Of a stretch of DNA of 64,000 bases, positions 34,620 to 55,417 are shown one piece after another. Below the pieces are notes generated by a model. It ran no database searches, had not been told where the DNA came from, and worked only from the letters and a program-made list of their open reading frames with translations. This DNA is from a virus. The first letter of the stretch is position 1, and each line of letters starts with the position of its first letter. The DNA is taken from the IMG/VR virus record IMGVR_UViG_3300044608_001826, positions 1 through 64,000 of that record; one strand, given 5' to 3'. A program made the translations under genes and the position numbers.

Positions 34620-34840
34620 CAGAAAACACCTCGTGATTCGATGTGAGCTTGAATGTCAGAGTCCGAAGGTTCCCACCCTTCGATGTATTCGAGTGCGGGG
34701 ATGATGTTCTCTTCTATTTGATCAGCAATGTCGGAGGGAATCATCATGTCTCGCTGCAACAGTTGTTTGAACCGTGCGAGCGCGTGGTAAGACAAACTAT
34801 GACAATCAAGGGAGTAGAGATCGTAAGGAAAGCGATTCAT
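34619..34840 (-). CDS. Hypothetical protein (73 aa)
   Basis: 73 residues. MNRFPYDLYSLDCHSLSYHALARFKQLLQRD is followed by a helix-turn-helix-like segment (IPSDIADQIEENIIPALEYIEG). Tyr/Leu-rich helix start. A GTTTGTG leader precedes the ATG. Function not known. Confidence 0.5.
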   Translation of the reverse strand: MNRFPYDLYSLDCHSLSYHALARFKQLLQRDMMIPSDIADQIEENIIPALEYIEGWEPSDSDIQAHIESRGVF

Positions 34841-34879
34841 TTGATGTAAGTTTGTGAGTGTTTGTGTGTAGCCTGTAGG

Positions 34880-35218: not shown

Positions 35219-35440
35219 TCAGCAGTCAGATTGTTTGTGCATGAATGATTCATGTGTACGTTGGATCTGTTTGTACATAAGCGGATACGTATACGCTACG
35301 TATTCACACAGTTTGCACATAGCATCGATGTGCCTGCGCTCCCAACAATCAGAACTCTGCACAGAACTCTGATACTTAATCGCTTCGATGATTGTGTGCG
35401 GTTGGAACAGATCGAGCGTGGACTCAGTTAAGCATTCCAT
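35219..35440 (-). CDS. Hypothetical protein (73 aa)
   Basis: Starts at ATG 35440 (MECLTESTLDLFQ), which has the AACACC leader. Helical, with five cysteines and repeated aromatic residues (MCKLCEYVAYTYPLMYKQI). The C-terminus (HESFMHKQSDC) ends in cysteine. Not recognised. Confidence 0.5.
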   Translation of the reverse strand: MECLTESTLDLFQPHTIIEAIKYQSSVQSSDCWERRHIDAMCKLCEYVAYTYPLMYKQIQRTHESFMHKQSDC

Positions 35441-35453
35441 GGTGTTCATTTGA

Positions 35454-35621
35454 TTAAGGTTGGCGCCATGCTTTGCAGCATCGTGAGCTTATGTAGTACT
35501 CTGCCGAATAGTCTGCGATCTGGTATTCGTGCAGCGTAGTGTTAGCCTCCTTGCGAGACTCGAATTCATCCACAGTCTCTCGGTAGTTGTGGTTGATTGA
35601 TCGGCGGTTTATGTAGTACAT
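35454..35621 (-). CDS. Small protein of a paralogous pair (55 aa)
   Basis: 55 residues: MYYINRRSINHNYRETVDEF, then ESRKEANTTLHEYQIADY and AEYYISSRCCKAWRQP. It shares the 'ETVDEF.S.KEA...L.EY......YY.S.R.CKAW' framework with the protein at 33879. The two genes lie 1.4 kb apart, separated by five other small genes, so they are diverged copies. Confidence 0.6.
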   Translation of the reverse strand: MYYINRRSINHNYRETVDEFESRKEANTTLHEYQIADYSAEYYISSRCCKAWRQP

Positions 35622-43646: not shown

Positions 43647-43940
43647 ATGACAAAACCAAAAGCAAAACCTTTCGTTGTAGGGGATCGTGTAGCTGAGCGC
43701 CCCAAACAACGCACCCTTTTTTACAAAACGCCTGAGGGTCGCGAAAAAGTCGAGCGTGTACTTACGCAACGCGTGGGTACTGTTATTGGCCTAACGAACC
43801 AGAAAAATCGCAACGGAGCTGTCGTTCCCTACGTGACCGTTAAGTGGGACGACACTGAGTCGGTATCCACACATGCGAAGGCTCGGATTTGCTTTTTGGC
43901 GGATCTCGATAGACTGATTGAAGAGTTTAATCCTGTATGA
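43647..43940 (+). CDS. Hypothetical SH3-like protein (97 aa)
   Basis: 97 residues. KPFVVGDRVAERPKQRTLFY, then RVGTVIGLTNQKNRNGAVVPYVTVKWDDTES. The 'F..GDrV....g.VG.Vig.......v.VkWD....' pattern resembles a small SH3/KOW-type barrel that binds nucleic acid or ribosomes. The last part (ICFLADLDRLIEEF) is a helix. An ATG one codon after a GTG is used. Precise role unknown. Confidence 0.55.
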   Translation: MTKPKAKPFVVGDRVAERPKQRTLFYKTPEGREKVERVLTQRVGTVIGLTNQKNRNGAVVPYVTVKWDDTESVSTHAKARICFLADLDRLIEEFNPV

Positions 43941-44113
43941 GCTCTGACAGTCATGTAATCCTTATATGCACTGAGGACGAGCTTAAGGCTCTGTTTGATT
44001 CGGGGGAGATCACGGATGAGACCGTGCCCTTGCCGCTCTCCTGTTTGTTTGATATACTTCTAGAGCATTACGGGTACGACCCTCACTGGCCTGCCCCTAA
44101 TGATGTATATTAA
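43937..44113 (+). CDS. Hypothetical acidic protein (58 aa)
   Basis: 58 residues beginning MSSDSHVILICTEDELKALF. Acidic, with one conserved-looking helix and the tail EHYGYDPHWPAPNDVY. The ATG overlaps the upstream stop (ATGA). No motif recognised. Confidence 0.5.
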   Translation: MSSDSHVILICTEDELKALFDSGEITDETVPLPLSCLFDILLEHYGYDPHWPAPNDVY

Positions 44114-44124
44114 TTTAACTTCTC

Positions 44125-44514
44125 ATGAGACAGAAACCCCTTGAGCCCCCACTTGAGCTCGTTCAGCAGTGGGGAAACTCCAGCCAAGCTTGGTTTGAGG
44201 AATCAAATGATCACTGGGACTACGAGCAGCACATCGCAAATCTCGCGGCTAAATGGGGCGCTGATCAAGAACTGACAGCGTGTTGCGACTTTGCTCTAAC
44301 AGCGAAAGTATGTGGGACTCAGTTTCAACGCCAGATGCTGGTTCGTCAGTTAAAGGAGAGGCGTAGGCCAGTTGAGGAGAGTATTAAGGAGAAAGCTTTT
44401 GACGCGCTGTACACCATAGCCGTGGGGGATAAAGAAGCTCGATGGAACTTTAAAGAAATTGAGACTATTCGGCAGGCGCTAGAGTTACTTCCTAACGATT
44501 CGCGGAGAGTGTGA
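44125..44514 (+). CDS. Paralogue family A member 1 (PPxELVQQW protein)
   Basis: 129 residues. PLEPPLELVQQW at the N-terminus, then ANLAAKWGADQELTACCDFAL and a charged helix (LKERRRPVEESIKEKAFDAL). The block 'PP.ELV.QW....(A/T)A(A/K)WGA.QEL..C' defines a family of about 70-135 residues that recurs at 44514, 44743, 47122 and 48796. The family is characteristic of Synechococcus and its phages and has no known function. The end overlaps the next start. Confidence 0.65.
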   Translation: MRQKPLEPPLELVQQWGNSSQAWFEESNDHWDYEQHIANLAAKWGADQELTACCDFALTAKVCGTQFQRQMLVRQLKERRRPVEESIKEKAFDALYTIAVGDKEARWNFKEIETIRQALELLPNDSRRV

Positions 44515-44723
44515 TGACACAGCAGCACCCCACCAGCATTCCGCCGGAGCTGGTGCGCCAGTGGCTGTTGGAGTATTACGGTGGCGATCTTGGTGAAGTG
44601 AGCCTTGAGGAGATGTACCTTGCTAGGTGTGCCGCTCAATGGGGTTACGAGCAGCACGAAAGGGAGCTGCTCGACGCTATGCACGCCGTAGTCCCGCAGC
44701 CTTACGAACCAAAAGCTGAGTAA
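44514..44723 (+). CDS. Paralogue family A member 2, short
   Basis: 69 residues. MTQQHPTSIPPELVRQWLLE, then YLARCAAQWGYEQHERELLD. It holds the family head (I-PPELV-QW) and the AAQWG block but lacks the C-terminal half present in the other members, so it may be truncated or minimal. The start TGATG overlaps the upstream stop. Confidence 0.6.
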   Translation: MTQQHPTSIPPELVRQWLLEYYGGDLGEVSLEEMYLARCAAQWGYEQHERELLDAMHAVVPQPYEPKAE

Positions 44724-44746
44724 CCATTACCACTAATCACCCATGA
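44724..44746 (+). repeat. Shared leader block, copy 1
   Basis: CCACTAATCACCCATGACA, ending with the start codon of the family A gene at 44743. Near-identical copies sit at 45318-45344 and 47101-47126. Confidence 0.7.
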
Positions 44747-45147
44747 CACAAGAACACCCCATCAACCCACCGCCGGAGCTGGTGAAGCAGTGGCGAGAGC
44801 AGGCCCCGCGTTGCCGCGACGGTGGCATTGCCCGCGAAGACTGGCTGATGACCAGCGCCGCCCGATGGGGCGCCGAGCAAGAGCTGGAGGCGTGCTGTGA
44901 GTTTCTTGGTACAAACAAGGAGTGGAACACAGTCGGACTTCTACGTGAACTCCGCGCCGCCCGTCGCCCCAAGCCGTCGAGCTTGAAAGGACGGATAGCT
45001 GCAGAGATCGAAAACGGGACTGCCTGCGACAGGGAGTCAGAGCGAATTACTCATGACGTTATCCGTGAGGTGGCAGCGTGGATTGATTATTTGGGATACC
45101 CCTCGTGCGCTGCTGAACTCAGAAAAGAACTCCCTCAGTCTCGTTGA
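44743..45147 (+). CDS. Paralogue family A member 3, fused to a family C tail
   Basis: 134 residues. Front: HPINPPPELVKQWREQAPRC and SAARWGAEQELEACCEFLG. The tail (SLKGRIAAEIENGT, THDVIREVAAWIDYLGYPSC) matches the end of the gene at 47474 (SLVKRVALAIS, AAIREVAMWMREN, GYTAAC). The gene therefore looks like a family A front joined to a family C back. The upstream 19 bases are the shared leader block. Confidence 0.65.
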   Translation: MTQEHPINPPPELVKQWREQAPRCRDGGIAREDWLMTSAARWGAEQELEACCEFLGTNKEWNTVGLLRELRAARRPKPSSLKGRIAAEIENGTACDRESERITHDVIREVAAWIDYLGYPSCAAELRKELPQSR

Positions 45148-45173
45148 GAGCCCTCGTAGCGGAACCCACTTCC

Positions 45174-45317
45174 ATGTCTGATAAGGAAAAACTAATTTAC
45201 TTCATCGAGCAGCTACGTGCAGACCCCGATGACCACAAAGATTATGAAAACACTTACGAAGATGGATGGATTGACGCCTGCAACGCCATTTTGAACCAGC
45301 TTCACCAGCCCTCATAG
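45174..45317 (+). CDS. Hypothetical acidic protein (47 aa)
   Basis: 47 residues starting MSDKEKLIYFIEQLRADPDD. One amphipathic helix then ENTYEDGWIDACNAILNQL, a second helix. Short and acidic, in the middle of the paralogue array. The stop is 19 bases before the next member of the array. Confidence 0.5.
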   Translation: MSDKEKLIYFIEQLRADPDDHKDYENTYEDGWIDACNAILNQLHQPS

Positions 45318-45340
45318 TCGCTTCCACTAATCACCCATGA
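45318..45340 (+). repeat. Shared leader block, copy 2
   Basis: CCACTAATCACCCATGACA, this time before a gene of a different family (45337), showing that the block is linked to position rather than to the family A coding sequence. Confidence 0.7.
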
Positions 45341-45651
45341 CATCAACACCAGATCTGACGACTGAAAACGACATCGCCTATGCCTTGTTTGATTCTGACG
45401 GGCAACTCCGGCCTGCTGCACGTCAGGTTTTGACCTCCTGCGGTTTCGTACCACCCGCCCCTGTTCCTATGAGCGAGCGTTTGCCGGGACCGGAGGATTG
45501 CGATGCAGAAGGCCGATGCTTTGTCTGGGACTGGCTAGCTACAGAGTGGAAGTTCCTGGAAAGGAGCGTATTTCAACAGGGTTGGGAAAGTGCTTACTGG
45601 CTCCCCCACCACGCGTTGCCGGTGCCGCAGCAGGAGGCCGACCGTGGCTGA
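45337..45651 (+). CDS. DUF551-like small protein (104 aa)
   Basis: 104 residues. N-terminal MTSTPDLTTENDIAYALFDS; the core PVPMSERLPGPEDCDAEGRC, FVWDWLATEWKFLE and AYWLPHHALPVP. The 'MSERLPGPEDCD.EGRC..W......W....W..PHHALPVP' string is common in picocyanobacterial and cyanophage proteins of the DUF551-like group, with no known activity. Trp- and Cys-rich, probably a compact beta fold. Ends 8 bases into the next gene. Confidence 0.65.
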   Translation: MTSTPDLTTENDIAYALFDSDGQLRPAARQVLTSCGFVPPAPVPMSERLPGPEDCDAEGRCFVWDWLATEWKFLERSVFQQGWESAYWLPHHALPVPQQEADRG

Positions 45652-45886
45652 CCTCTCCTCCGCCGCGCAGGCAGTGGTCTGGGAATTCAACCAAGCAGCC
45701 AGCGGCAAGCCTGATGACTGGCACTACCTGCCTGCTATCGCCGCCGCCCTGCGAGCTGCTGCAGATCAAGTGGTGCCGGATGAGCCGCTTTACGGGGGTG
45801 ATCAGCGCTGGATGTTTGAGCGCGATGCCCGTCAGGCTTGTCGCAAGAAACTCCTCGCAATCGCTGATGAGCTTGAAGCCCAGTAG
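45644..45886 (+). CDS. Paralogue family B member 1 (80 aa)
   Basis: 80 residues from GTG, preceded by a strong CAGGAGG site. DLSSAAQAVVWEFNQAASG, AAALRAAADQVVPDEPLYGG, CRKKLLAIADELEAQ. The 'LS.AAQAV......AAALRAAADQVV....LLAIADELE' scheme recurs at 48363 and 49115. All-helical, no cysteine or metal motif. Its start overlaps the upstream gene. Confidence 0.65.
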   Translation: MADLSSAAQAVVWEFNQAASGKPDDWHYLPAIAAALRAAADQVVPDEPLYGGDQRWMFERDARQACRKKLLAIADELEAQ

Positions 45887-45962
45887 TCACCTTCGCTAAA
45901 ATGCTTAGCGATAGAACCTGGACCTCTGTTACATCCCCGAGGCGTATTACGTTCAGGTCATC

Positions 45963-46040
45963 CACCCGGTCCGAGCTAATTGGATAGGACGGTCACCTGC
46001 CGCTGCAGGGACGGTGCGGGTTCGAATCCCGTCCGGGTGC
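45963..46040 (+). tRNA. tRNA-like element with atypical D and anticodon arms
   Basis: A seven-bp acceptor (CACCCGG with CCGGGTG) and a T-arm (GCGGG TTCGAAT CCCGT) are canonical. The central region instead forms a long hairpin (GTC.CCTGC/GCAGG.GAC) with only a four- to six-base loop, and the D-arm cannot be drawn normally. No anticodon can be assigned safely. It could be a pseudo-tRNA or a tRNA-like RNA. Confidence 0.4.
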
Positions 46041-46127
46041 TCAAATTGTGAAGAAGGTACCACACGGTAGTTTTTCTGGTACCATGGTGCGGCGGAACAA
46101 GCCGCTAAGGCCAATTCACTTAGTTAC

Positions 46128-46289
46128 ATGTCCAAATCTACTGAAACCAAAAAGCAAGCCGCCAAAGCTCTGATCGAGCTCGTGGTAGCTGCATCAAGCA
46201 CCACCACTTTTGAAGATTGCTTCGATTTTATGGACCGTCGCATCGAGCAAGCCGCTGCCGAAGTGATGGAGGCGATTTTCGATGACTGA
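46128..46289 (+). CDS. Hypothetical helical protein (53 aa)
   Basis: 53 residues: MSKSTETKKQAAKALIELVV, then FEDCFDFMDRRIEQAAAEV. Two helices; a TTAGTTAC element lies just before the ATG. A 19-residue open frame (46282-46341) overlaps its end and is not annotated separately. No family recognised. Confidence 0.5.
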   Translation: MSKSTETKKQAAKALIELVVAASSTTTFEDCFDFMDRRIEQAAAEVMEAIFDD

Positions 46290-46327
46290 TCTAGAGATCA
46301 TCGAACTTAACACTAAGGAAACAACTC

Positions 46328-46543
46328 ATGAGGCTCCTTAGTCAAAACGTCGACTGGAAGGATTACCCCGAGTCTTTCTGGGACCACGGTGCTCAGTATG
46401 TAATCAGCCAAGGGTACGATGTTGATCTTGACGTCGACTCCTTAATGATCTTGCTGTGGCGCATGGATCAGCGAATAACCCAGTTGGAGACAGCGATTAG
46501 CGCGTGTAATTGCGACAAAACCTCTACATCTGCAGACAAATGA
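46328..46543 (+). CDS. Hypothetical protein (71 aa)
   Basis: 71 residues: MRLLSQNVDWKDYPESFWDH, then a helix (VDSLMILLWRMDQRITQLET) and AISACNCDKTSTSADK. Acidic-aromatic N-terminus. The stop overlaps the next start (ATGA). Unknown. Confidence 0.5.
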   Translation: MRLLSQNVDWKDYPESFWDHGAQYVISQGYDVDLDVDSLMILLWRMDQRITQLETAISACNCDKTSTSADK

Positions 46544-46827
46544 CGTGTAATTGTGACACCGCCCGCAGCCTGATAAACCGCCTGGCGGATTCCCTTCAGG
46601 AGTTCATCGACTACGAACCCGTGGGGTACGTCGAGTTCGAACAGGATTTGATCGACGAAGCCCGTGAGTTTGTTAAAGGTACAGAACCTCCTGAGCAAAT
46701 AAGCGAGGAGGAAAATGAGAGACGATTTAAAGCGTGTATGGAGCAGATACGCAGTCTCACCCGCGAAAATTTTGTAGAACTGATGGGTGAGGAATTTCTT
46801 GAGGAGTTTCGGCGTGTTTCCCATTAA
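46540..46827 (+). CDS. Hypothetical acidic protein (95 aa)
   Basis: 95 residues from ATG 46540 (MTCNCDTARSLINRLADSL). Helical and strongly acidic (YVEFEQDLIDEAREFVKG; PPEQISEEENERRFKACMEQI). Two neighbouring cysteines at the start (CNC). Possibly a small metal-binding or dimerising protein. Not recognised. Confidence 0.5.
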   Translation: MTCNCDTARSLINRLADSLQEFIDYEPVGYVEFEQDLIDEAREFVKGTEPPEQISEEENERRFKACMEQIRSLTRENFVELMGEEFLEEFRRVSH

Positions 46828-46865
46828 TTTATAGATACTCAGTAAGCCTGATTACTCTTTTTCTC

Positions 46866-47099
46866 ATGGAACCCAGCAAAAAAGTTTTTCTGGTCACTCT
46901 CCAATATCGTGCTTATGTTTTGGCCGAGGATGACTACGACGCTGAGGATCTGGCTCACTCTATTGCCAAGGAAGAGCGCCCCGTGGTTGAAGTCGAAGAA
47001 GTTCGATCAAACGTTCTGTCGTGGCCGCTGCACGCTTGCGTCTACCACGCGGAACAACTGGATCGCGACATTACAGTTCACGATATTTTTCCCGCGTAG
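46866..47099 (+). CDS. Hypothetical protein (77 aa)
   Basis: 77 residues: KVFLVTLQYRAYVLAEDDYD, then AEDLAHSIAKEERPVVEVEE. A beta-strand then helix with an 'EVEEVR..VLSWPLH' second strand is the layout of small ferredoxin-like domains seen in other phage proteins of this size. Function unknown. Confidence 0.5.
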   Translation: MEPSKKVFLVTLQYRAYVLAEDDYDAEDLAHSIAKEERPVVEVEEVRSNVLSWPLHACVYHAEQLDRDITVHDIFPA

Positions 47100-47100
47100 T

Positions 47101-47126
47101 AGTCACGACCACTAATCACCCATGAC
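47101..47126 (+). repeat. Shared leader block, copy 3
   Basis: CGACCACTAATCACCCATGACACA, ending in the start of the family A gene at 47122. It matches copies 1 and 2 almost base for base across the region just upstream of ATG. Confidence 0.7.
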
Positions 47127-47481
47127 ACAACAACATTCCATCACCCCACCGCCGGAGCTAGTGCAGCAGTGGCTGGAAGAGCTGTACGGCGGCCCAGTTT
47201 CTGTGATTAGCCCATTTGATCAGCGCGTCCTTATAGCTGCCGCCCAATGGGGTGCAGACCGCCAACTTGAAGCAGACGCGCAGTGGTTAGACCAAAATTC
47301 CTTGGATGCGCCACATTTGACAATCACTCCGACTGGTAAGGGTTTGGTAGAAGCAATGCGCTCCAAGGCGCCGAGCTTGAAGGAGCAGGCGCTAGATCTT
47401 CTGGATAAAGCAGAGGATCCTTCTTGGGACATCAATGATTTTTCCATCATCCGCCGCGCATTGGAGCAACTCGATGACTGA
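47122..47481 (+). CDS. Paralogue family A member 4 (119 aa)
   Basis: 119 residues. HSITPPPELVQQWLEELYGG, AAQWGADRQLEADAQWLDQN, then KAPSLKEQALDLLDKAEDP and IIRRALEQLDD. It has the full four-block family A plan, including the helical 'SLKEQAL..L....RRALEQLDD' end. The stop overlaps the next start by 8 bases (ATGACTGA). Confidence 0.65.
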   Translation: MTQQHSITPPPELVQQWLEELYGGPVSVISPFDQRVLIAAAQWGADRQLEADAQWLDQNSLDAPHLTITPTGKGLVEAMRSKAPSLKEQALDLLDKAEDPSWDINDFSIIRRALEQLDD

Positions 47482-47989
47482 CTACAAAGCAACCCCCGAG
47501 CAGTGGGCACAGTGTGAAGACTGGGTTAGAAGTTCTGTTGTGGGTGCCAGTGATGCTTGTATCCTTGAACTCCGCGCCAGGGTCGAGACACTGGAAGCTG
47601 CAGCTCACAAGCACATCGTCGAAACCAGCGACAACATCTTGAAATTGGCCAGTCGGATCGAATCACTGGAAGCCGCCGAACGTGAAACATCAAAGGTTTA
47701 CCAAATTAGTAAACCGTTAAAACTCACTTCAAAACAACAAGATCAGTTAAACGCATTGCTGCGGCCCAACTCCAGCTCCACCCCTAATTCTTCCCAAATT
47801 GGTAGGTCACTGGTGAAGCGTGTGGCACTCGCCATTAGCGGGATTGAGTATGGCTTGGAAACAAATGAAGAAGCTGTCAACTGGTCACCTGAAGCTCGCG
47901 CCGCGATTCGTGAGGTGGCAATGTGGATGCGTGAAAACGAAGTCGGCTATACAGCCGCTTGCTGGCTGGAACAAGAGGTAAACCTATGA
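47474..47989 (+). CDS. Family C protein with coiled coil (171 aa)
   Basis: 171 residues from ATG 47474 (MTDYKATPEQWAQCEDWV). A coiled coil (CILELRARVETLEAAAHKHI; ASRIESLEAAERE) is followed by SLVKRVALAISGIEYGL and AAIREVAMWMRENEVGYTAAC. Similar sequences are common in Synechococcus genomes and phages as unknowns. The C-terminal block is shared with the family A member at 44743. Confidence 0.6.
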   Translation: MTDYKATPEQWAQCEDWVRSSVVGASDACILELRARVETLEAAAHKHIVETSDNILKLASRIESLEAAERETSKVYQISKPLKLTSKQQDQLNALLRPNSSSTPNSSQIGRSLVKRVALAISGIEYGLETNEEAVNWSPEARAAIREVAMWMRENEVGYTAACWLEQEVNL

Positions 47990-48168
47990 CTGACTACAAG
48001 TTTGTGCCACTGGACACGCTGGAGAATCGCCTTGGCGATGCTTTGGGCTTGGCAATCAGCATAATCCGCAAGCCTGAGACTATCGACAACAAAACCATGG
48101 CTCAGATCGAAGCACCGTTCAAGGAGTGGTGCGACGGTCTTGTTGATGGAGGACTGCTTGATGACTGA
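47986..48168 (+). CDS. Hypothetical protein (60 aa)
   Basis: 60 residues from ATG 47986 (MTDYKFVPLDTLENRLGDAL), overlapping the previous stop as ATGA. It shares the MTDYK start with the 47474 product. Helical with AQIEAPFKEWCDGLVDGG at the end. Unknown. Confidence 0.5.
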   Translation: MTDYKFVPLDTLENRLGDALGLAISIIRKPETIDNKTMAQIEAPFKEWCDGLVDGGLLDD

Positions 48169-48289
48169 CTTCTGACTCATTGGTAAAAGCATTAAAAAGC
48201 GGCAGGATGTCACCCCCACCGCCCTTGCAACTGGATCTCACCCCAGTCGCTTTGCTGCTTTCTGATCAGCTCCAGCACTGTAGCACACG

Positions 48290-48338
48290 GCAGGTATTAG
48301 CATGTATTACCTGAAAACAGGAATCAGCTAATACTTGC
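48290..48338 (+). promoter_or_regulatory. Nested inverted repeats, possible operator
   Basis: CAGGTATTAGCATGTATTACCTG (48291-48313) is a near-palindrome, and GCAGGTATTAGC (48290-48301) pairs with GCTAATACTTGC (48327-48338) with one mismatch. The element lies in a 194-base gap, the largest break in the array, and precedes the gene at 48363. Confidence 0.35.
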
Positions 48339-48362
48339 CCCTCACGACCCGCCTCAACTTTT

Positions 48363-48611
48363 ATGTCTGAACTCTCCCCCGTCGCGCAGGCGGTGTTGGA
48401 TGCTCTCTACATGGAAGAGCTGAATGGACCGCAGCAACTTATGGCACGCGCCCATGCCGCCGCCGCCCTGCGAGCTGCTGCGGATCAGGTGGTGCCGCCC
48501 GCCCTTGAAGAAGAATGGCGCGACAGGAATCAAGCATTACCGCTGACAAAGATGGTTGAGATCCGTCTAAAACTCCTCGCCATCGCCGCCGAGCTGGAAG
48601 GTGGGCAATGA
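48363..48611 (+). CDS. Paralogue family B member 2 (82 aa)
   Basis: 82 residues. MSELSPVAQAVLDALYMEEL, AAAALRAAADQVVPPALEEE, VEIRLKLLAIAAELEGGQ. Same plan as members at 45644 and 49115, with the middle linker varying in length. The last codons overlap the next ATG (ATGA). Confidence 0.65.
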   Translation: MSELSPVAQAVLDALYMEELNGPQQLMARAHAAAALRAAADQVVPPALEEEWRDRNQALPLTKMVEIRLKLLAIAAELEGGQ

Positions 48612-48799
48612 AACTCGAACACAAGCGAGCCCTCCGCTGCTTCATCCTTGAGAAACTCGAAGAGGTGACCTGTGTGGACCTTGCATACGTAGCCTCAGAT
48701 GCTAACTGCACCCCGTTTGAAATGGCTGAGCAGTTCGACATTGAGTTCGAACGAATCGCGAAACTATTCAACTACCCAAACTACTCCGACGACGAATGA
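48608..48799 (+). CDS. Hypothetical protein (63 aa)
   Basis: 63 residues: MKLEHKRALRCFILEKLEEV, then DLAYVASDANCTPFEMAEQF. A helix-turn-helix-like arrangement (LAYVASDANCTPFEMAEQFDIEF) is possible, of the type seen in small regulators. Not strong enough to name. Confidence 0.5.
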   Translation: MKLEHKRALRCFILEKLEEVTCVDLAYVASDANCTPFEMAEQFDIEFERIAKLFNYPNYSDDE

Positions 48800-49122
48800 C
48801 TGAGAACCACCCGATCACACCGCCGCCAGACAAAATCCACAACTGGCTCCAGTCAGAAAAGATTGGCTGCACCATCGAGCAAATTATTACTGCGGCTGCC
48901 CAATGGGGTGCCGACCAGGAGCTTTTGGCTTGTGGCAACTACCTCAAACAGTGCGCTGCATGGGAAGAAGAGGATGTAACCGAGTTCTATAACTATCGCC
49001 GCCCCAAGCCGCCGAGCTTGAAGGAGCAGGCGTTAAAGGCGTTACAAGCACTGCAACAGCGGACAACAGACCCCAACATCGTCGAACCACTTCGCCGCGC
49101 ACTGGAGCAGCTCGATGACTGA
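48796..49122 (+). CDS. Paralogue family A member 5 (108 aa)
   Basis: 108 residues. NHPITPPPDKIHNWLQSEKI, TAAAQWGADQELLACGNYLK, SLKEQALKALQALQQR, RRALEQLDD. The PPPELV block is altered to PPPDKIHNW; the other three blocks fit well. Preceded by an ATGA overlap rather than the leader block. Its stop overlaps the family B gene by 8 bases. Confidence 0.65.
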   Translation: MTENHPITPPPDKIHNWLQSEKIGCTIEQIITAAAQWGADQELLACGNYLKQCAAWEEEDVTEFYNYRRPKPPSLKEQALKALQALQQRTTDPNIVEPLRRALEQLDD

Positions 49123-49312
49123 ACTCTCTCCCGCCGCGCAGGCTGTACTGACCGCTTTTAGCAAGTACCCCTTGCACGGCGATCACATAGCCAACACCCT
49201 GATGCACGGGGCTCTTCCCGCTGCTTTGCGAGCTGCTGCAGATCAACTTGATCACCCCACTTCAGCTCACACGCTCTACGCTTTTGCTGACGAGCTCGAA
49301 GCCCAACAGTGA
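49115..49312 (+). CDS. Paralogue family B member 3, short (65 aa)
   Basis: 65 residues: MTELSPAAQAVLTAFSKYPL, then PAALRAAADQLDHPT and ADELEAQQ. Shorter than members 1 and 2 because the linker and part of the last helix are missing. Translational overlap with both neighbours. Confidence 0.6.
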   Translation: MTELSPAAQAVLTAFSKYPLHGDHIANTLMHGALPAALRAAADQLDHPTSAHTLYAFADELEAQQ

Positions 49313-49470
49313 ATCCCATAAAAGTCCTTAGTCATCCCACCGATGACGAGTTGCGTCAATTTGCCTCAGAGTATTTCCACGTTTCACCGTGGATGCGGAT
49401 CCACCCTGGTATTATTCCTTTTGCCCGCGCTGTCCTTGAGCGCTGGTATCCCACATCAACATCAGACTAA
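49309..49470 (+). CDS. Hypothetical protein (53 aa)
   Basis: 53 residues from a GTG overlapping the previous stop. VNPIKVLSHPTDDELRQFAS, FHVSPWMRIHPGIIPFARAV. Contains a conserved-looking 'PTDDEL..FA' then a basic-aromatic helix. Similar short proteins occur in picocyanobacterial phages; function unknown. Confidence 0.5.
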   Translation: MNPIKVLSHPTDDELRQFASEYFHVSPWMRIHPGIIPFARAVLERWYPTSTSD

Positions 49471-49473
49471 TTA

Positions 49474-49650
49474 ATGGCGGACATTTCAAAATGCGCTAAT
49501 TACGCTAACTGTTCTCTACATGAGTCCTGTTACCGCTTTACAGCGGCTGAATCTCGATGGCAAAGTTATATGTGGCCCCTAGAGACAGGTCCAAAGTGCG
49601 ATTATTATTGGCCTACTGAGGAGAAAGTGTCAGAAAGTGACAAAAAATAA
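49474..49650 (+). CDS. Cys-rich protein (58 aa)
   Basis: 58 residues: MADISKCANYANCSLHESCY, then MWPLETGPKCDYYWP. Four cysteines (residues 7, 13, 19 and 42) are spaced for one zinc or disulphide site. The end is acidic and overlaps the next start. No known family. Confidence 0.5.
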   Translation: MADISKCANYANCSLHESCYRFTAAESRWQSYMWPLETGPKCDYYWPTEEKVSESDKK

Positions 49651-49840
49651 TGATCAACGTATTAAACCGTATCTTTTTGTATCTTTTCAACGTAAAGACA
49701 CAAAGCAGTACGGATCGCAGGTTTTTAGCCAGTGGGCTAAAGGATTGGAATTTGCCCGTTGGGTAGCAGACTCACCTGAACACGACCTTCTTTCTTTAAG
49801 ACAGACCTCAAACTCAACCAATGTTTCACAAAAATCCTAG
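49637..49840 (+). CDS. Hypothetical protein (67 aa)
   Basis: 67 residues from GTG (MTKNNDQRIKPYLFVSFQRK). One beta/alpha unit with YGSQVFSQWAKGLEFARWVAD and a Ser/Thr/Asn-rich tail. Overlaps both neighbours. Not recognised. Confidence 0.45.
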   Translation: MTKNNDQRIKPYLFVSFQRKDTKQYGSQVFSQWAKGLEFARWVADSPEHDLLSLRQTSNSTNVSQKS

Positions 49841-50174
49841 ATATTTAAGCGAGTGCCCTAAATGCAAAACAAAAACTTGTGAGACAATCGAATCGAGAAA
49901 AGAGTCGTTAGGTCAACGACGACGTAAAGAGTGCACAACCTGTGGACACAGACTGACTACTTACGAAGTTAGCGAGGAGTTTTTTAAAGAATCTCAAAAA
50001 CTAAAGTCAAATTTGGGGAAAATTAGAAGTTTATTAGAGGTTGATTCAACCCCAATAACTGGTGACACTTGTGAACAATGTGAGCATATGGATGATGGTA
50101 TTTGTTCCTTTAGTTTTCCTGACGCAGGAGGATACTTTGCCTCAGAATGCAACCTCTTTTCTAAAGTGAAGTAA
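49821..50174 (+). CDS. NrdR-like zinc-finger protein without ATP-cone
   Basis: 117 residues. ECPKCKTKTCETIESRKESL, RRRKECTTCGHRLTTYEV: the CxxC...CxxC ribbon with 'RRRKEC..CG.R.TTYE' is that of the NrdR repressor of ribonucleotide reductase genes. The ATP-cone that normally follows is missing. The C-terminal half instead has a second Cys cluster (DTCEQCEHMDDGIC; ASECNLF). It might bind host nrd promoters or have another target. No RNR gene is visible here. Confidence 0.7.
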   Translation: MFHKNPRYLSECPKCKTKTCETIESRKESLGQRRRKECTTCGHRLTTYEVSEEFFKESQKLKSNLGKIRSLLEVDSTPITGDTCEQCEHMDDGICSFSFPDAGGYFASECNLFSKVK

Positions 50175-50195
50175 GAGCTATTGGGGTTGCCCCTT

Positions 50196-50333
50196 ATGCC
50201 CTTGTTAGGTGCGATCCCGATTTCGGAAGATCCCTTAGGCTATTTTGTATTATTTATAATCTTAAGCTCGCCCTTAATCGGGTTGCTTGTCGTCGTCGCA
50301 CAAGACTACGAGGAAAACCACCGTGGCAAGTGA
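50196..50333 (+). CDS. Short membrane protein (45 aa)
   Basis: 45 residues: MPLLGAIPISEDPLGYFVLF, then IILSSPLIGLLVVV, AQDYEENHRGK. One 24-residue hydrophobic span with a charged tail. Its stop overlaps the next start. Size and topology resemble small photosystem or respiratory subunits and also phage membrane effectors; no signature decides between them. Confidence 0.5.
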   Translation: MPLLGAIPISEDPLGYFVLFIILSSPLIGLLVVVAQDYEENHRGK

Positions 50334-50580
50334 ACTTCTGCAAAGGTGTGTTCTACACTACGGCACAACCAAGGGCACCGCGTATCATAAGATGTCTTCG
50401 GTTCTCCTCTATCTAGCGGAACAGCTTGAGGAGGATGCCATCTCTTTTAACCGCAATGGCCAGCCTCATAAGATTTTGGATGGAACGAGTTTTAGGAATC
50501 GACTTCTAGAAGCAGCTACGTACGCCCACGTCGCACCAGTGACGAATCACGCCAGCGACGATAAACAAGTTTGTGACTAA
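50323..50580 (+). CDS. Hypothetical protein (85 aa)
   Basis: 85 residues from GTG 50323 (VASELLQRCVLHYGTT); a TTG further upstream is less likely because AGGAAAA lies before the GTG. Helical core (MSSVLLYLAEQLEEDAISF) and a C-terminus that overlaps, tail to tail, the membrane gene on the other strand by 75 bases. Not recognised. Confidence 0.5.
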   Translation: MASELLQRCVLHYGTTKGTAYHKMSSVLLYLAEQLEEDAISFNRNGQPHKILDGTSFRNRLLEAATYAHVAPVTNHASDDKQVCD

Positions 50581-50703
50581 GTAGCTAGCCAAGATTAAAG
50601 TTCGAATGTAAGCCACTTTGTCAGCCTCCTTGTCGTGGGGAGAAGCCTTCTCTCCGAGTGCTTTAGCCCACAAGCGGAAAGCCCTTTGCCTATTTCTGTA
50701 CAT
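50506..50703 (-). CDS. Conserved cyanophage membrane protein (65 aa)
   Basis: 65 residues: MYRNRQRAFRLWAKALGEKA, then SPHDKEADKVAYIRTLILAS and YLVTNLFIVAGVIRHWCDVG. A charged 30-residue head is followed by one membrane span ending IRHW. The string 'AFRLWAKALG.KASP.DKE.D..A.IRT......LVTN.FIVAGVIRHW' recurs in cyanobacterial genomes and phages, so this is a real gene although opposite to its neighbours. Its size and topology allow a holin-like or regulator role. Confidence 0.65.
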   Translation of the reverse strand: MYRNRQRAFRLWAKALGEKASPHDKEADKVAYIRTLILASYLVTNLFIVAGVIRHWCDVGVRSCF

Positions 50704-50760
50704 TTAACTTTCTAGAAATCCTTGCAGGTTTCTTTGTGTCACTATAGTATAAGTTTTTCG

Positions 50761-51210
50761 ATGAACATGGTCTGGGATCACCGCTTTTTAGATCTCGCAA
50801 AACACATCTCAAGCTGGAGTAAGGACCCCTCTACGCAAGTAGGTGCTGTCTGTGTGCGGGATCGGCGCATCCTGGCGACGGGTTACAACGGGTTCCCACG
50901 CGGCGTGGCAGATCTACCAGGGCGCCTAACGAACCGCGACGAAAAGCTCCTGCGCACAGTCCATGCTGAGATGAATATCGTTGCGCAGGCTGCTCGAAAC
51001 GGGATCAGCTTGGATAAATCGACTGTTTACGTTTGGCCTTTTATGCCTTGCAGCTCTTGCTGCACGTCGTTAATCCAAGCGGGCGTCAAGCGCGTCGTGG
51101 CTCCAGATTTTCCAATCCCTGACCGATGGCAGGCGAGTTTCACCACGGCTCAGACCATGTTCGTTGAGGCGGGCGTTGAGCTCACTCTTTTAGATACTTC
51201 TCATTCGTAG
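50761..51210 (+). CDS. dCMP deaminase
   Basis: 149 residues from ATG 50761. Zinc-binding and catalytic motifs are intact: TVHAEMNIVAQAA (His and Glu) and FMPCSSCCTSLIQAG (two Cys). The front KHISSWSKDPSTQVGAVCVRD is that of dCMP/CMP deaminases. It converts dCMP to dUMP, feeding the ThyX enzyme at 10.6 kb. Length is normal for the family. The stop is 29 bases inside the convergent FkbM gene. Confidence 0.93.
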   Translation: MNMVWDHRFLDLAKHISSWSKDPSTQVGAVCVRDRRILATGYNGFPRGVADLPGRLTNRDEKLLRTVHAEMNIVAQAARNGISLDKSTVYVWPFMPCSSCCTSLIQAGVKRVVAPDFPIPDRWQASFTTAQTMFVEAGVELTLLDTSHS

Positions 51211-51907
51211 CTACGAACATGTTTGCGAACGGACGGAGCTCCGCGATCTGGTAATTTAAGTTAGTTAAATGTTTGAAAAGGCGATTCTTTTCTTCTCTGA
51301 ACCACTCATCTTCGTTTGCTTCGAAAATAATGGGCGGGAAGTTGCTTCGTTCGAGTGTGTTGTGGGCGCCGTGAAGTGCTTTTAGTTCGTTACCTTCGAT
51401 ATCCATTTTTATGAGTCCTACATTGTTTAAGTGGTAGCGGTCAATCGTTGTTGTTTTGACTTTTTCGTGAGCTAAAACTTGTTGATCTCTTTGAGGAACT
51501 CGTAAAGTCGATCCTCCACCGTCTTCCGAGACCACGTGGAGGGTCATTGTTTGGTTCGCTTCGACCATATTCGTCACCGCTTTGTTGTGCGGCACGATAT
51601 TTTTGATTTCGTTTATAAAAATATTTCCACAAAGCTGGTAAAACGTACGACGCTGGGCTTCAAAAGCATGAATTTCTTCAAAATAAGGCGCTAACAGCGT
51701 GGAGTACGCCCCCATGTGAGCGCCGCAATCGATCATTTTTTTGGTTTTATCGCCAAATCGCTCGATTGCCCATTTAATAATGGGCTCTTCGGGGATGCCA
51801 ACCTGGAACATTTGGCACCTTCCGGACGCGTCATCGTGCATCAGGAAGGATTCGGACGGAACAGGAACGATTGTGCGTGACTGAGGTCCCCAGAGAAACG
51901 TTCCCAT
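51182..51907 (-). CDS. FkbM-family SAM methyltransferase
   Basis: 241 residues from ATG 51907 (MGTFLWGPQ); a TTG two codons upstream is also possible. The Rossmann start MIDCGAHMGAYSTLLAPYF (SAM-binding loop), then EIHAFEAQRRTFYQL and NVGLIKMDIEGNELKALHGA are the FkbM motifs in order. Family members O-methylate sugars, polyketides or lipids. Next to glycosyltransferases it may modify LPS O-antigen or phage glycan. Convergent with the dCMP deaminase gene. Confidence 0.85.
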   Translation of the reverse strand: MGTFLWGPQSRTIVPVPSESFLMHDDASGRCQMFQVGIPEEPIIKWAIERFGDKTKKMIDCGAHMGAYSTLLAPYFEEIHAFEAQRRTFYQLCGNIFINEIKNIVPHNKAVTNMVEANQTMTLHVVSEDGGGSTLRVPQRDQQVLAHEKVKTTTIDRYHLNNVGLIKMDIEGNELKALHGAHNTLERSNFPPIIFEANEDEWFREEKNRLFKHLTNLNYQIAELRPFANMFVATNEKYLKE

Positions 51908-51950
51908 GTCCAAATTTTGAGTGCTACTATGCTACCAGCTTTTGTCGGTT

Positions 51951-52718
51951 ATGAGTATTCCCGTTATTGGTACTGCATGTGTTAACGCTCCTTATTGGGT
52001 TTATCGTCTTCTATATAGTATTGACTACCCTGTTGACAACTTTGTAGTTTTTAACAATAACGGTAGGGGTCAAATCACAGAAGAACTGGATCTTTTAACT
52101 AAGCTTCCGCACAAGCACGTCAAGAAAGTTACGGTTTGTCACCTCCCGGCGAACTTGGGGTGCTCAGGAGCGTGGAATTTAATCATTAAAAGCTATATGA
52201 ATTCCCCCTCGTGGTTGATTGTTAATCACGACATCATGTTTACTCCAGGCTTTTTAAGTCAAATGGTTAAGCACGCCGAGGATGCGGAAACAGGTATTGT
52301 CCATGGCGAGAACGGAAGTTGGGATGTTTTTCTGATCAAAGATTGGGTCGTACAACAATTCGGCTTGTTCGATGAGAATCTCTATCCGGCGTATTGCGAG
52401 GACATGGACTACGGGATGCGGTTTAAGCATCGGGAGCTTAAAAGGCATATGTCGGTAGGCGTTCCCTACTACCACGGAGAGAAGAGTGGTAATTACGACG
52501 ACGGAAGCCAGACTTGGCGAAGTGAACCGGAGCTTGCTCATTCGATTCATATTGCTCACGAACTAAACAAACAATACCTGCACGCTAAGTGGAATCCCGC
52601 TTGGCAGTCCCACGTGGAGGGAGAAGTTTACAAACATCCGTTTAACAATTCTAATATCCCCCTTAACTACACAACGTACGATCTTCACTTTGTGAGGATG
52701 AAGAACCTCGGATTTTAA
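51951..52718 (+). CDS. GT-A-like glycosyltransferase (GT2 type)
   Basis: 255 residues from ATG 51951 (MSIPVIGTACVNAPYWVYRL). The front (IDYPVDNFVVFNNNGRGQI, ANLGCSGAWNLIIK) is like GT2 cores; SWLIVNHDIMFTPG is the acidic motif region after the third strand. YPAYCEDMDYGMRF is the 'ED' acceptor motif of processive and oligosaccharide GT2 enzymes. It is probably the transferase for a surface glycan. Divergent from the FkbM gene (43 bases between starts), so a shared promoter serves both. Confidence 0.8.
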   Translation: MSIPVIGTACVNAPYWVYRLLYSIDYPVDNFVVFNNNGRGQITEELDLLTKLPHKHVKKVTVCHLPANLGCSGAWNLIIKSYMNSPSWLIVNHDIMFTPGFLSQMVKHAEDAETGIVHGENGSWDVFLIKDWVVQQFGLFDENLYPAYCEDMDYGMRFKHRELKRHMSVGVPYYHGEKSGNYDDGSQTWRSEPELAHSIHIAHELNKQYLHAKWNPAWQSHVEGEVYKHPFNNSNIPLNYTTYDLHFVRMKNLGF

Positions 52719-52801
52719 ATATTTAAATATCTGAGAGTCTATAAGTGTTTCATTTAGCTAAGGCTAAACTGTAAAAATTACCGGTGTGCTCAGACAGGTC
52801 T

Positions 52802-53086
52802 ATGCCCTTCTACTCTTCTTACACTTCCTGTCGTCGGCTTGTTAATAAGCTGAAGCACATTCTGGACGCACGTGGGATGTCCTCTTTCATGCTTAGTCGT
52901 GTGACTGAGTTGTCCCCCACGACAACACGGAAGATTTACTACGACTCAGAATATATACCTTCTCCTGATGTTCTTGAGCGTATCTGTATTTCGCTAGATA
53001 TCCAACCGGGCGATATTCTGCAAATTACGCCTAAACTAGAGACATCAGTAGCGGTGTGTTCCGGTGTTTTCTCCCCAGGATTATGA
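52802..53086 (+). CDS. XRE-type helix-turn-helix protein (94 aa)
   Basis: 94 residues from ATG 52802 (MPFYSSYTSCRRLVNKLKHI). Helix-turn-helix: ARGMSSFMLSRVTELSPTTT, then RKIYYDSEYIPSPDVLERIC and ISLDIQPGDIL. This is the compact Cro/C1-type DNA-binding fold with the standard 'P..dvLerIc..L.i.pGDil' finish. A plausible local regulator for the following structural genes. A GTG six codons upstream would extend it. Confidence 0.75.
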   Translation: MPFYSSYTSCRRLVNKLKHILDARGMSSFMLSRVTELSPTTTRKIYYDSEYIPSPDVLERICISLDIQPGDILQITPKLETSVAVCSGVFSPGL

Positions 53087-53567
53087 ATTTGCAGCCCGCG
53101 TTCTGGGGTTACCTGTTCCTGTAACTTCTGCAGAGAAAGCTGTTGCTGCTCCTATGGTTGCTTCCGTTCTGCGGAACTTCCACCGGGCTGCTCCTCCCAT
53201 GCCGGGGCATGAAGCTGATGGCATGTATACAAATGCTACACGTTCGCTTAACGCTCAACCTAAGGTTAGCCAACCGGAAGCACGCAATCAGTTAGAGCAT
53301 CGTTTACGCGCTGGCGTGGTATCCGCTGATGATGGTGCTGAGCTTGAGGATCTGCTCGCACTTGTTATTGGTGACGACTATTTAATGAGTGCTTTTATTC
53401 AGTTCTTACAGAATATGGGTATTCAGAGCTTGGAATCCGGTGAGTTCCTTAGTCAACAGCGTCCTCTTGAGTACGATCTTCCTAACTACGGCGGTCAGTA
53501 TTCTGTTCTGAACGCTCCTTCGAACTCTCAAGTTCCTGCCTCTGTTCAGTATCAGGAGCTCGGTTGA
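53064..53567 (+). CDS. Hypothetical virion-type protein (167 aa)
   Basis: 167 residues from GTG, overlapping the regulator stop by 23 bases. Ala/Pro-rich front (RAAPPMPGHEADGM), helical middle (LEDLLALVIGDDYLMSAFIQFL) and a loop-rich end. It lies at the head of a run of Ala/Gln-rich proteins that ends at the terminase. The style is that of small virion proteins, but no family is visible. Confidence 0.5.
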   Translation: MFSPQDYEFAARVLGLPVPVTSAEKAVAAPMVASVLRNFHRAAPPMPGHEADGMYTNATRSLNAQPKVSQPEARNQLEHRLRAGVVSADDGAELEDLLALVIGDDYLMSAFIQFLQNMGIQSLESGEFLSQQRPLEYDLPNYGGQYSVLNAPSNSQVPASVQYQELG

Positions 53568-53570
53568 TCC

Positions 53571-53804
53571 ATGATGGAGCGCGAACGCCAACTCCGCGAA
53601 CGTGATGTTCGTAAGGACGCACCGGAGATAGATCCGACGACATTCTTGTCGATGTATCTGGAATCTAATTTTCCTCAGACCGCTACGCATCCTTCCAAGG
53701 ATCAAGCCGAGCGTGGGATAATTCCTAAGGATGAATTAGATGATGTAAGATACAACAAGAAGCCGTTATCCGGCACTTCTTTTGACAACCCGGCTAGAAG
53801 CTAA
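53571..53804 (+). CDS. Hypothetical protein (77 aa)
   Basis: 77 residues: MMERERQLRERDVRKDAPEI, then FLSMYLESNFPQTATHPSKD. Charged, probably mostly disordered with a short helix. Stop overlaps the next start (TAATG). A virion scaffold fragment is possible, unproven. Confidence 0.5.
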   Translation: MMERERQLRERDVRKDAPEIDPTTFLSMYLESNFPQTATHPSKDQAERGIIPKDELDDVRYNKKPLSGTSFDNPARS

Positions 53805-54631
53805 TGGCGATTAGAGGTGTTGCTGGGGTTAGTAATTTAAGTAAGGTCTACTCTGACCTGTTAAATGCCTTTGGCGGAGACACCGCAAAGGTTAGTGCCG
53901 TTTTAAATAATCCTCAGGTTTTTCAGGGTTTAGTTGACGCGGGCGTTATTACTACGACGGGGCTCGGTGCTGCTGCTACTGCCGCTACCGTTGCTGCTCC
54001 TGTCGCTGCTGCCGCCGCTGCTCCTGCCGTTGCTGCAACTGCTGCTGGTGGAGGGGGGTTACTCGGATCTGCCCTCGGCGGTGGAGCTAAGTTAGCTGGT
54101 GCACTTGGACTTGAGGTTGCTGCAGAGAAGATCGCGGGTGGCCTGCTCGGCGGTACTCAGCCCACCCAGTATCCTACGGGTGTTCCTTCCGGAGCTAGTA
54201 AGTACTTCTTTAGCCCCGAGTTAGGTCTGTCCTACCAGCAGTACTACGAGAGTGTTATTCCACGGGTTCGGGCGTTAAACGCAATCTCTGAACGGTTCGG
54301 TCTTGGACCTATTGCTGAGGAGCCGGTTGACCCCCAATCCTTTGCAACGTTCCAAGCACAACTGAGCGAGAAGCAAGCTGAAAGTCTCTCCAATCGTCGG
54401 ATTCGGGAGATCATGGCTGAGAAGCAATTCGATTATCTGTCGAATGCTCTTCAGGCTCAATCCGCTGTTCGTCAACAGCAGGTTAAATCCCTTGGTGATA
54501 TTCAGCGCCAACGTGTTGAGTCTGGCTACACTGCAGCTCAGGGGATTATGGAATCTGCTCTCCAGAACGTTCTTGCCCGAGAACGTTTTGAGAACAACTC
54601 AGCCATTTCTGAGTTAGCTAAACCAGTCTGA
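53804..54631 (+). CDS. Ala-rich membrane-active virion protein candidate (275 aa)
   Basis: 275 residues. Residues about 50-110 are a very hydrophobic Ala/Gly/Val series (TAATVAAPVAAAAAAPAVAA, GGGGLLGSALGGGAKLAGAL). The last 120 residues are helical with many Gln (QAQSAVRQQQVKSLGDIQRQ). A hydrophobic front plus Gln-rich helices is typical of phage internal ejection proteins that insert into the host envelope. Supported by position and by the two related genes that follow. No diagnostic motif. Confidence 0.55.
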   Translation: MAIRGVAGVSNLSKVYSDLLNAFGGDTAKVSAVLNNPQVFQGLVDAGVITTTGLGAAATAATVAAPVAAAAAAPAVAATAAGGGGLLGSALGGGAKLAGALGLEVAAEKIAGGLLGGTQPTQYPTGVPSGASKYFFSPELGLSYQQYYESVIPRVRALNAISERFGLGPIAEEPVDPQSFATFQAQLSEKQAESLSNRRIREIMAEKQFDYLSNALQAQSAVRQQQVKSLGDIQRQRVESGYTAAQGIMESALQNVLARERFENNSAISELAKPV

Positions 54632-54643
54632 GGAGAAACAAAC

Positions 54644-55417
54644 ATGGCTAACCCTTTATACGAAGCTGGTCGAGCTCTTTATTCCGTTCCGGTTCTTGGG
54701 CAGGTAGCTGCGGCGATTAATCCGCTCGGTGCTATCGCTCACACTGCTGCCACTAACCTTATTCCCGGTTATGCCCCCATCGTGGGCGAAGAGGAAGAGG
54801 TCGGCGGACAGAAAAAATACTACGCTGGAGAGCGTTATGGATATCAAAGCCCTGAGTCTTACAGGAAAATCTTTGGTGCGTTCCCTAAGTCCGTCCGGAC
54901 GCAGCTCGAAGATCAGCAACGCGCTCGGGCTGCTGCAGGCGGGGAGTCAAGGAGCAGCCGTGGTGACACAGATTGGGAGCAAACTCCAACTTCTCCTCAA
55001 GACTCTACGCCGCCTCCTCCCCCTGTCTTGCCTGAACCAGCAGGCACCGAAAAAATCCCGCAGAAAGAAGATCAGACGCCGCAGGATATCCTGAGTCGTT
55101 TAGATAAGTACCTGAGCCCTGAGTTTCAGCAACAGCTTCGGGAGCAGGAAACTGAGCAGTTTATTCGGCGGTCTCTGCTGACAAGCGCTCTTGCTTATCG
55201 GCAGACTCTTGCAAACACTCGTCGGCAAGAGGCTTTGGAGAAAATGCGTGTCTGGCGGGATGTCCAAGCCGCTCAGATTGAAGCTAACTCTCGCGCTATG
55301 GGTGCTCTCGCTTCCACAGCGTGGGCAGCTGTAACTCCTAATGCAAATACAATGACCGCATTAGGTCAGCAGTACCAAGCCACTATGGCTCCTTTTCAGA
55401 CTTTTAACCCGAAATAA
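54644..55417 (+). CDS. Gln-rich virion-type protein (257 aa)
   Basis: 257 residues with an AGGAG site. Hydrophobic front (LYSVPVLGQVAAAINPLGAI), a Pro-rich middle (DSTPPPPPVLPEPAGTEKI) and a helical end (SLLTSALAYRQTLANTRRQE). Same overall plan (hydrophobic start, disordered middle, Gln helix) as the genes on each side, so the three look like paralogues in architecture only. Internal virion protein is the best guess. Confidence 0.5.
   Translation: MANPLYEAGRALYSVPVLGQVAAAINPLGAIAHTAATNLIPGYAPIVGEEEEVGGQKKYYAGERYGYQSPESYRKIFGAFPKSVRTQLEDQQRARAAAGGESRSSRGDTDWEQTPTSPQDSTPPPPPVLPEPAGTEKIPQKEDQTPQDILSRLDKYLSPEFQQQLREQETEQFIRRSLLTSALAYRQTLANTRRQEALEKMRVWRDVQAAQIEANSRAMGALASTAWAAVTPNANTMTALGQQYQATMAPFQTFNPK

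Follow-up and report, generated by a model that had tools for sequence, protein, structure and literature searches.

Small genes of a phage array are assembled from constant blocks and variable segments exchanged between phages

The IMG/VR virus record IMGVR_UViG_3300044608_001826, 87,475 bases long, possesses an array of very small genes between positions 44125 and 49470 of the window, that is, of bases 1–64000 of the record, the whole stretch analyzed here. The closest isolate to the record is Synechococcus phage S-EIV1 from a high arctic lake, whose terminase is 52.6% identical, the next match being far lower; judged by sequence, the window phage is related to freshwater Synechococcus phages. 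Five open reading frames (ORFs) of family A (44125, 44511/44514, 44743, 47122 and 48796) and three of family B (45644, 48363 and 49115) are present, all on the plus strand, as described in an initial annotation made from the letters alone. Median length and median pI of family A proteins are 116 aa and 4.8. PHROG_32006, a family of unassigned function, is matched by four of the five A ORFs at E 3e-16 to 1e-23 and by the short ORF 44511 at E 8e-7; the profile covers the constant blocks in all five, placing family A in PHROG_32006. Family B gave no match in Pfam or PHROG profile searches. The array runs in one direction, as the annotation held; its proposal of an overlap at every junction fails, with three genes following leaders and positions 48168–48365 being non-coding, and gene 45337, which it called DUF551-like, has no Pfam match even at E 0.1, though a weak similarity may exist. 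Its view that blocks have been lost, shortened or recombined between copies is borne out by ORF 44511, devoid of linker and C blocks, by the C-terminus of 44743, resembling that of the coiled-coil gene 47474, and by DNA-level repeats between copies.

A collection of 327 related loci, nearly all IMG/VR contigs (2.6 Mb after masking of long identical stretches), was built from sequences resembling window genes and from matches to patterns of the leader, alpha element and L block described below. The leader scan constrained the leader and ATG only. Owing to this mode of collection, natural frequencies are not readable from the loci. Families A and B consist of constant DNA blocks alternating with hypervariable segments: blocks N, M, L and C separated by slots V1–V3 in family A, and blocks N, M and C separated by slots V1–V2 in family B (Table 1). 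An unbiased 16-mer census of the first 219 loci led to these blocks again (A_N with the leader, 76 nt; A_M, 57; A_L, 53; B_M, 43; also A_C, B_N and B_C) and, in addition, a non-coding element. Distances between consecutive blocks are divisible by three in 204/204, 232/234 and 184/184 cases in family A (620/622 overall) and in 160/161 and 148/148 cases in family B. Inside segment types the ratio of nonsynonymous to synonymous polymorphism (pN/pS) is 0.17–0.23, which indicates purifying selection; together with frame retention, this implies that the products are selected proteins, not noise. Synonymous codon sharing (kappa) at the constant blocks reaches 0.42–0.63 in family A and 0.28–0.55 in family B (B_M 0.55), compared with mostly 0.03–0.27 at conserved columns of ordinary long-gene clusters. 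Four ordinary clusters lie above that range (0.39–0.50), of which three look like antisense shadows of array genes and one like a set of close relatives. The kappa values were computed before the L-block scan, which therefore cannot have inflated them.

Segments recur at 90–100% nucleotide identity in differing combinations, and the 168 complete A genes found on 145 contigs display 163 distinct V1-V2-V3 combinations. At 80% identity with single linkage, a cut-off on which the numbers depend, family A comprises 138, 127 and 108 segment types for V1, V2 and V3 (Chao1 estimates 286, 310 and 218). Among 165 between-contig pairs with V1 at ≥90% identity, V2 is likewise ≥90% identical in 24 and below 70% in 129, against a base rate of segment sharing of 0.5–0.7%; sharing between V2 and V3 and between V1 and V3 resembles this pattern. 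As pairs are not independent, counts of types are safer: repeated types occur with more than one partner in 33/38 (V1-V2), 30/30 (V2-V3) and 30/31 (V1-V3) cases. Slot fidelity is total, none of 1,464 matches crossing slots, and segments keep both slot and orientation. In family B, 46 pairs share V1, and four of these also share V2. An example is locus L015, with V1 99% identical to that of L104, V2 100% to that of L138 and V3 100% to that of L011. The V1 of L104 is in turn 100% identical to that of window gene 47122, and L104 carries a 251-bp stretch of this gene at 97% nucleotide identity, although the DNA polymerases of the two phages have 32% protein identity. More generally, in contigs bearing 89–99% identical segments the other window proteins are mostly found at 30–75% amino acid identity or unmatched. 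Segments are thus exchanged slot for slot and in frame between distantly related phages, with breaks at the blocks; such sharp transitions of similarity between otherwise different genomes agree with phage mosaicism by homologous recombination.

The position of the breaks was evaluated using 57 matches of at least 88% identity from 48 contigs, in which 86% of 110 endpoints fall in blocks. Since some intervals in this first test had been drawn after the BLAST ends were seen, it was redone on family blocks and leaders alone, which make up 19% of the array: they contain 83% of 77 endpoints and 80% of 49 unique ones, against a mean of 19% and a maximum of 57% in rotated controls. Whole genes and the non-coding element also move, with breaks at leaders, at ATGACTGA stop/start overlaps and at the element ends.

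The sibling phage L143 is syntenic with the window, at about 93% identity over 43647–44713, 98% over 49103–51952 and 93% over 51957–54669. Between these flanks, from the leader/A_N of 44743 to the A_C/ATGACTGA junction at 49103, the 4.4 kb of the window give way to 2.4 kb of different genes belonging to these families, contradicting the arrangement by which the annotation was to be refuted, namely single-copy orthologues in place and no shared blocks. L143 also possesses two A genes with 100% identical V1 and two with 100% identical V2, otherwise different, and, inside the replacing stretch, a 214-aa A-B fusion ORF (reverse complement 1425–2069) in which N-terminal blocks of family A precede a family B body. 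Gene fusions and deletions at blocks are found in L109 and L175 as well. The annotation had proposed that modules are duplicated and shuffled. Shuffling goes further than it suggested, a conclusion that is strongly supported, and involves segments of about 20 residues inside genes as well as whole genes and the non-coding element. Duplication is weakly supported: most segments derive from the phage population rather than from copies in the same genome. Recent duplication within a genome is rare, a segment at ≥90% identity being shared in just 2 of the 93 A pairs within contigs, and L143 being the sole contig with such pairs, exchange takes place mostly between phages.

A shared leader of 22–24 nt, AGTCATTACCACTAATCACCC, precedes genes 44743, 45337 and 47122. 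These three matches in the window are all exact, although up to three mismatches were allowed, with 0.41 expected by chance, and in different phages the leader stands before unrelated gene families. The motif GATGACTGA has four window copies, all within the array and on its strand (0.40 expected). Where the gene following an A gene could be recognized (186 cases), the overlap between the two measures 8 nt (ATGACTGA) in 86 and 4 nt in 32. The non-coding element (198 bp, 48168–48365) holds at 48190–48340 a 100-nt part alpha to which one hairpin out of at least two is joined. In most copies of alpha plus beta, a family B gene starts about 173 nt further downstream, and at least three different sequences are found upstream. 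The fold predicted for the element is strong (z −4.25); covariation gives it no support, no base pair having changed on both sides among 12 copies. Promoter and terminator scans gave no excess over shuffles and no promoter-like match inside alpha or beta. The element may play a role in expression.

Table 1. Constant blocks, genes, leaders and non-coding parts of the array (window positions).
Feature	Position	Strand
Constant block A_N (MTQQHxITPPPELVQQW)	47122..47173	+
Constant block A_M (AAQWGADxxLEA)	47236..47275	+
Constant block A_L (consensus RPKPPSLKEQAL)	47355..47394	+
Constant block A_C (IIRRALEQLDD*), ending in the ATGACTGA junction	47447..47481	+
Constant block B_N (LSPxAQAV)	48363..48396	+
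Constant block B_M (AAALRAAADQVVP)	48455..48499	+
Constant block B_C (LLAIAAELE)	48569..48611	+
Family A gene, 129 aa; N block diverged, gene also present in sibling L143	44125..44514	+
Short family A gene, 69 aa counted from ATG, limited to blocks N and M	44514..44723	+
Family A gene, 134 aa, C-terminus resembling that of 47474 (DNA repeat)	44743..45147	+
Small gene, 104 aa, no Pfam match; close relative behind same leader in L213	45337..45651	+
Family B gene, 80 aa, 8-nt overlap with upstream gene	45644..45886	+
Family A gene, 119 aa, complete N-V1-M-V2-L-V3-C	47122..47481	+
Coiled-coil gene (MTDYKATPEQW...), 171 aa, 8-nt overlap with gene 47122	47474..47989	+
Small gene, 60 aa, exchanged as a unit, 90–97% nt identity in L017, L125, L267	47986..48168	+
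Family B gene, 82 aa; V1 85% nt identical to isolate KBS-S-2A	48363..48611	+
Small gene, 63 aa, 4-nt overlap at each end	48608..48799	+
Family A gene, 108 aa; V2 at 89–99% nt identity in L044, L186, L031, L268, L270	48796..49122	+
Family B gene, 65 aa, kept in L143; right edge of replaced stretch (A_C/ATGACTGA)	49115..49312	+
Leader AGTAACCATTACCACTAATCACCC before 44743; left edge of L143 array replacement	44719..44742	+
Leader before 45337 (different family)	45313..45336	+
Leader before 47122; recurrent 5′ breakpoint (L007, L015, L144)	47098..47121	+
Mobile non-coding element, part alpha	48190..48290	+
Hairpin beta of the element (GGCAGGTATTAGC...GCTAATACTTGCC); hairpin gamma in its place in other phages	48288..48340	+

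The array is very probably one phage's present sample from a stock of small accessory genes common to the population, which are reassorted by homologous recombination at the constant blocks. We hypothesize that segments are exchanged by homologous recombination or annealing at the 20–76 bp blocks during co-infection, through an enzyme of the host or an unrecognized phage recombinase, and that each crossover would leave an intact reading frame on the same helical scaffold. More speculatively, the constant parts could hold the fold and the variable parts could set target specificity, and reassortment might yield new specificities faster than point mutation. Minimal pairing segments are reported to be 23–27 bp for Red-beta and 31–34 bp for RecA, and exchanges of about 100 bp within genes to be frequent (De Paepe et al. 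2014, PMC3945230); the constant blocks are similar in size to these segments, though diverged.

Several observations weigh against this interpretation. The recombination evidence is indirect, coming from comparison of sequences, and nearly all data are metagenomic. Searches of the 87 kb record revealed no RecT, ERF, RecA, integrase, resolvase or reverse transcriptase, though a PD-(D/E)XK exonuclease (phrog_298) and a weakly SSB-like protein are present. Exact parental runs in the M block are 11–22 bp, below the Red-beta requirement; either the true parents are unsampled or the process is laxer. Residual linkage persists, V2 being common to 14.5% of V1-sharing pairs. Finally, A and B genes have no informative match in Pfam, NCBIfam or PADLOC (defense proteins), and Foldseek retrieved nothing at E≤0.001 from PDB and BFVD for A or from PDB for B. 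As a separate observation, the gene adjoining the SSB-like one (17341–18156) encodes a 271-aa protein with no PHROG or Pfam match, a candidate for an unrecognized annealing protein.

Some other readings of the same data have to be considered. It is improbable that the blocks are themselves DNA or RNA sites, serving for instance for binding, for an unrecognized site-specific recombinase or as a homing element, with the proteins riding along. The high synonymous conservation of the blocks would suit such sites, as would the leaders and the structured mobile element (fold z −4.25), but near-perfect frame retention and a pN/pS of about 0.2 show selection at the protein level, integrase, resolvase and reverse transcriptase were not found in the record, and, unlike a fixed recombinase site, blocks differ in sequence between families A and B and can differ between parents. 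Slightly poorer still are the prospects of ordinary diversification, in which the blocks are a structural core and the segments drift or are freely selected within the usual phage mosaic background. The blocks are indeed the most conserved protein positions and lie in or near predicted helices; however, drift does not return 90–100% identical segments in new combinations, synonymous conservation of the blocks is well above that of most ordinary genes of the same contigs, segments within types are under purifying rather than diversifying selection, and the sibling flanks are syntenic while the array is replaced. The weakest alternative is that assembly at the repeated blocks, repeats being well known to cause misjoins, fused unrelated fragments of these nearly all metagenomic loci into chimeras, which at homologous blocks would also remain in frame and which could account for the 11 of 27 L-block recombinants with parents sharing at least 31 bp exactly; it is hardly credible, given that in none of the 13 testable M-block recombinants do the parents have more than 22 bp exactly in common (fewer than 21 in 12 cases), too few identical bases for typical assemblers, that the same V1-V2 join is repeated in 24 contig pairs, that array content differs between long syntenic flanks in the window and L143, and that mosaics composed of segments known from the metagenomes are present in isolates, namely in an A gene of S-CBS2 (V2 at 92% with unrelated V1 and V3) and a B gene of KBS-S-2A (V1 at 85% with unrelated V2), which speaks against assembly chimeras.

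No RVT_1 match indicative of a diversity-generating retroelement was found in the 87 kb record, possibly a fragment, and the variation comes about by block exchange. An integron array lacks support from any Phage_integrase match in the record, again possibly a fragment (attC sites were not specifically sought), and the breakpoints sit inside coding blocks. For an invertible shufflon, the record holds no integrase or resolvase, and segments keep slot and orientation.

In HsdS, conserved regions flank variable specificity regions exchanged by recombination, but this is a large cellular protein with large domains, whereas the array encodes phage proteins of 65–134 aa with two or three short slots. 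The alpha/beta element can be likened to T4-type PeSL cassettes, stem-loop-bearing intergenic elements tied to gene shuffling, though no promoter-like match lies within alpha or beta. Another parallel is the "ORFanage" of S-PM2, a cyanophage gene-exchange hotspot with many small ORFans in one direction, whose order is rarely conserved in metagenomes and which lowers fitness under laboratory conditions (Puxty et al. 2015, PMC4503421). Family B has a relative there (E 5.5e-6), and at least ten of its ORFs are related to the collected loci. The available part of that account concerns whole-gene gain and loss; constant blocks, slots and intragenic reassortment are features of the array. Phage domain mosaicism, in which fragments are common to otherwise different phage proteins and shuffling is ongoing (Smug et al. 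2023, PMC10684548), was considered there for fragments of at least 50 aa common to otherwise unrelated proteins, whereas the units here are about 20 aa long and occupy fixed slots on one scaffold. Relaxed phage recombination is similar in that short diverged homology suffices (PMC3945230), yet the alternating constant and variable architecture is absent from the available part of that paper, and the array record has no recognized recombinase of this kind. Start-associated sequences of cluster K mycobacteriophages are short, conserved and located immediately upstream of the starts of unrelated genes, some having inverted repeats further upstream (Pope et al. 2011, PMC3203893); the array leader differs in sequence, is also a recurrent breakpoint and is common to distantly related phages. 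Phage mosaicism, domain shuffling, start-associated sequences and gene-exchange hotspots are already known. The multi-slot reassortment of 20-residue segments on constant, DNA-conserved blocks appears undescribed, no prior description of it in small-protein families having been found in the open-access literature.

AlphaFold predicts family A to be all helical (predicted local distance difference test, pLDDT, 84; predicted template modeling score, pTM, 0.59) and family B to form four helices (pLDDT 84, pTM 0.74). A sequence search of solved structures gave nothing significant. The best VIA-align matches were histone-fold chains for A (Z 4.7, root-mean-square deviation 6.1, 66 aligned) and PadR for B (Z 6.1, root-mean-square deviation 4.3, 75 aligned); no function is read from them, as such scores are common for helical models. 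We speculate that the products could be early host take-over or anti-defense proteins, a tentative assignment with the balance leaning somewhat against it. The annotation had suggested anti-defense or host-specific effectors, for which neither homology nor fold searches gave a lead. The assignment is favored by the products being small, acidic, helical, numerous and variable, and by the related S-PM2 region, which costs laboratory fitness yet persists in nature (PMC4503421).

Deposited phages with family A or B genes are S-CBS2, S-H1, KBS-S-2A and, weakly, S-PM2, all of them infecting Synechococcus. A host origin of family A was also considered and rejected: one family A pattern, run against 84,980 bacterial and archaeal genomes, yielded two contigs only, so that the array looks phage-borne. 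Both are short contigs of actinobacterial metagenome-assembled genomes, and one of them (L223) also holds S-PM2-like phage ORFs and is probably a mis-binned phage. In S-EIV1 (KJ410740), relatives of window genes 43644 (44% aa identity) and 44125 (family A; weak, E 3e-4) stand together near thyX at 34615–34842 and 35427–35582, perhaps a minimal version of the array. Adjoining the array in the window, positions 49821–50174 encode a short phage protein with an NrdR-like N-terminal zinc ribbon (TIGR00244, E 5.5e-8, below the curated cut-off). Within the array, 45964–46042 is tRNA-like, with pairing acceptor ends, a T arm GGGTTCGAATCCC and an irregular anticodon arm; it has no ARAGORN call and scores 16.4 bits with Rfam tRNA-Sec, far under the gathering score, and may be a decayed tRNA. 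ORFs resembling glycosyltransferases, by eye only, are dispersed among other genes at 5136–6011, 51921–52718, 57938–59110 and 60754–61626.

ORFan regions of phages are usually seen as unexplained clutter, and a large class of them here obeys a simple grammar of fixed framework, interchangeable segments and fixed slots; similarity-based clustering can mask exchange at the 20-residue scale. It is also conceivable, though we regard it as unlikely, that the constant blocks are maintained because they promote exchange, making the array a dedicated population-level diversification system. There would then be a common library of short segments, from which each infection could assemble new small binding proteins, much like a combinatorial receptor repertoire. 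If the segments set specificity, such arrays would represent a natural combinatorial library, and how phages keep pace with polymorphic hosts would become testable.

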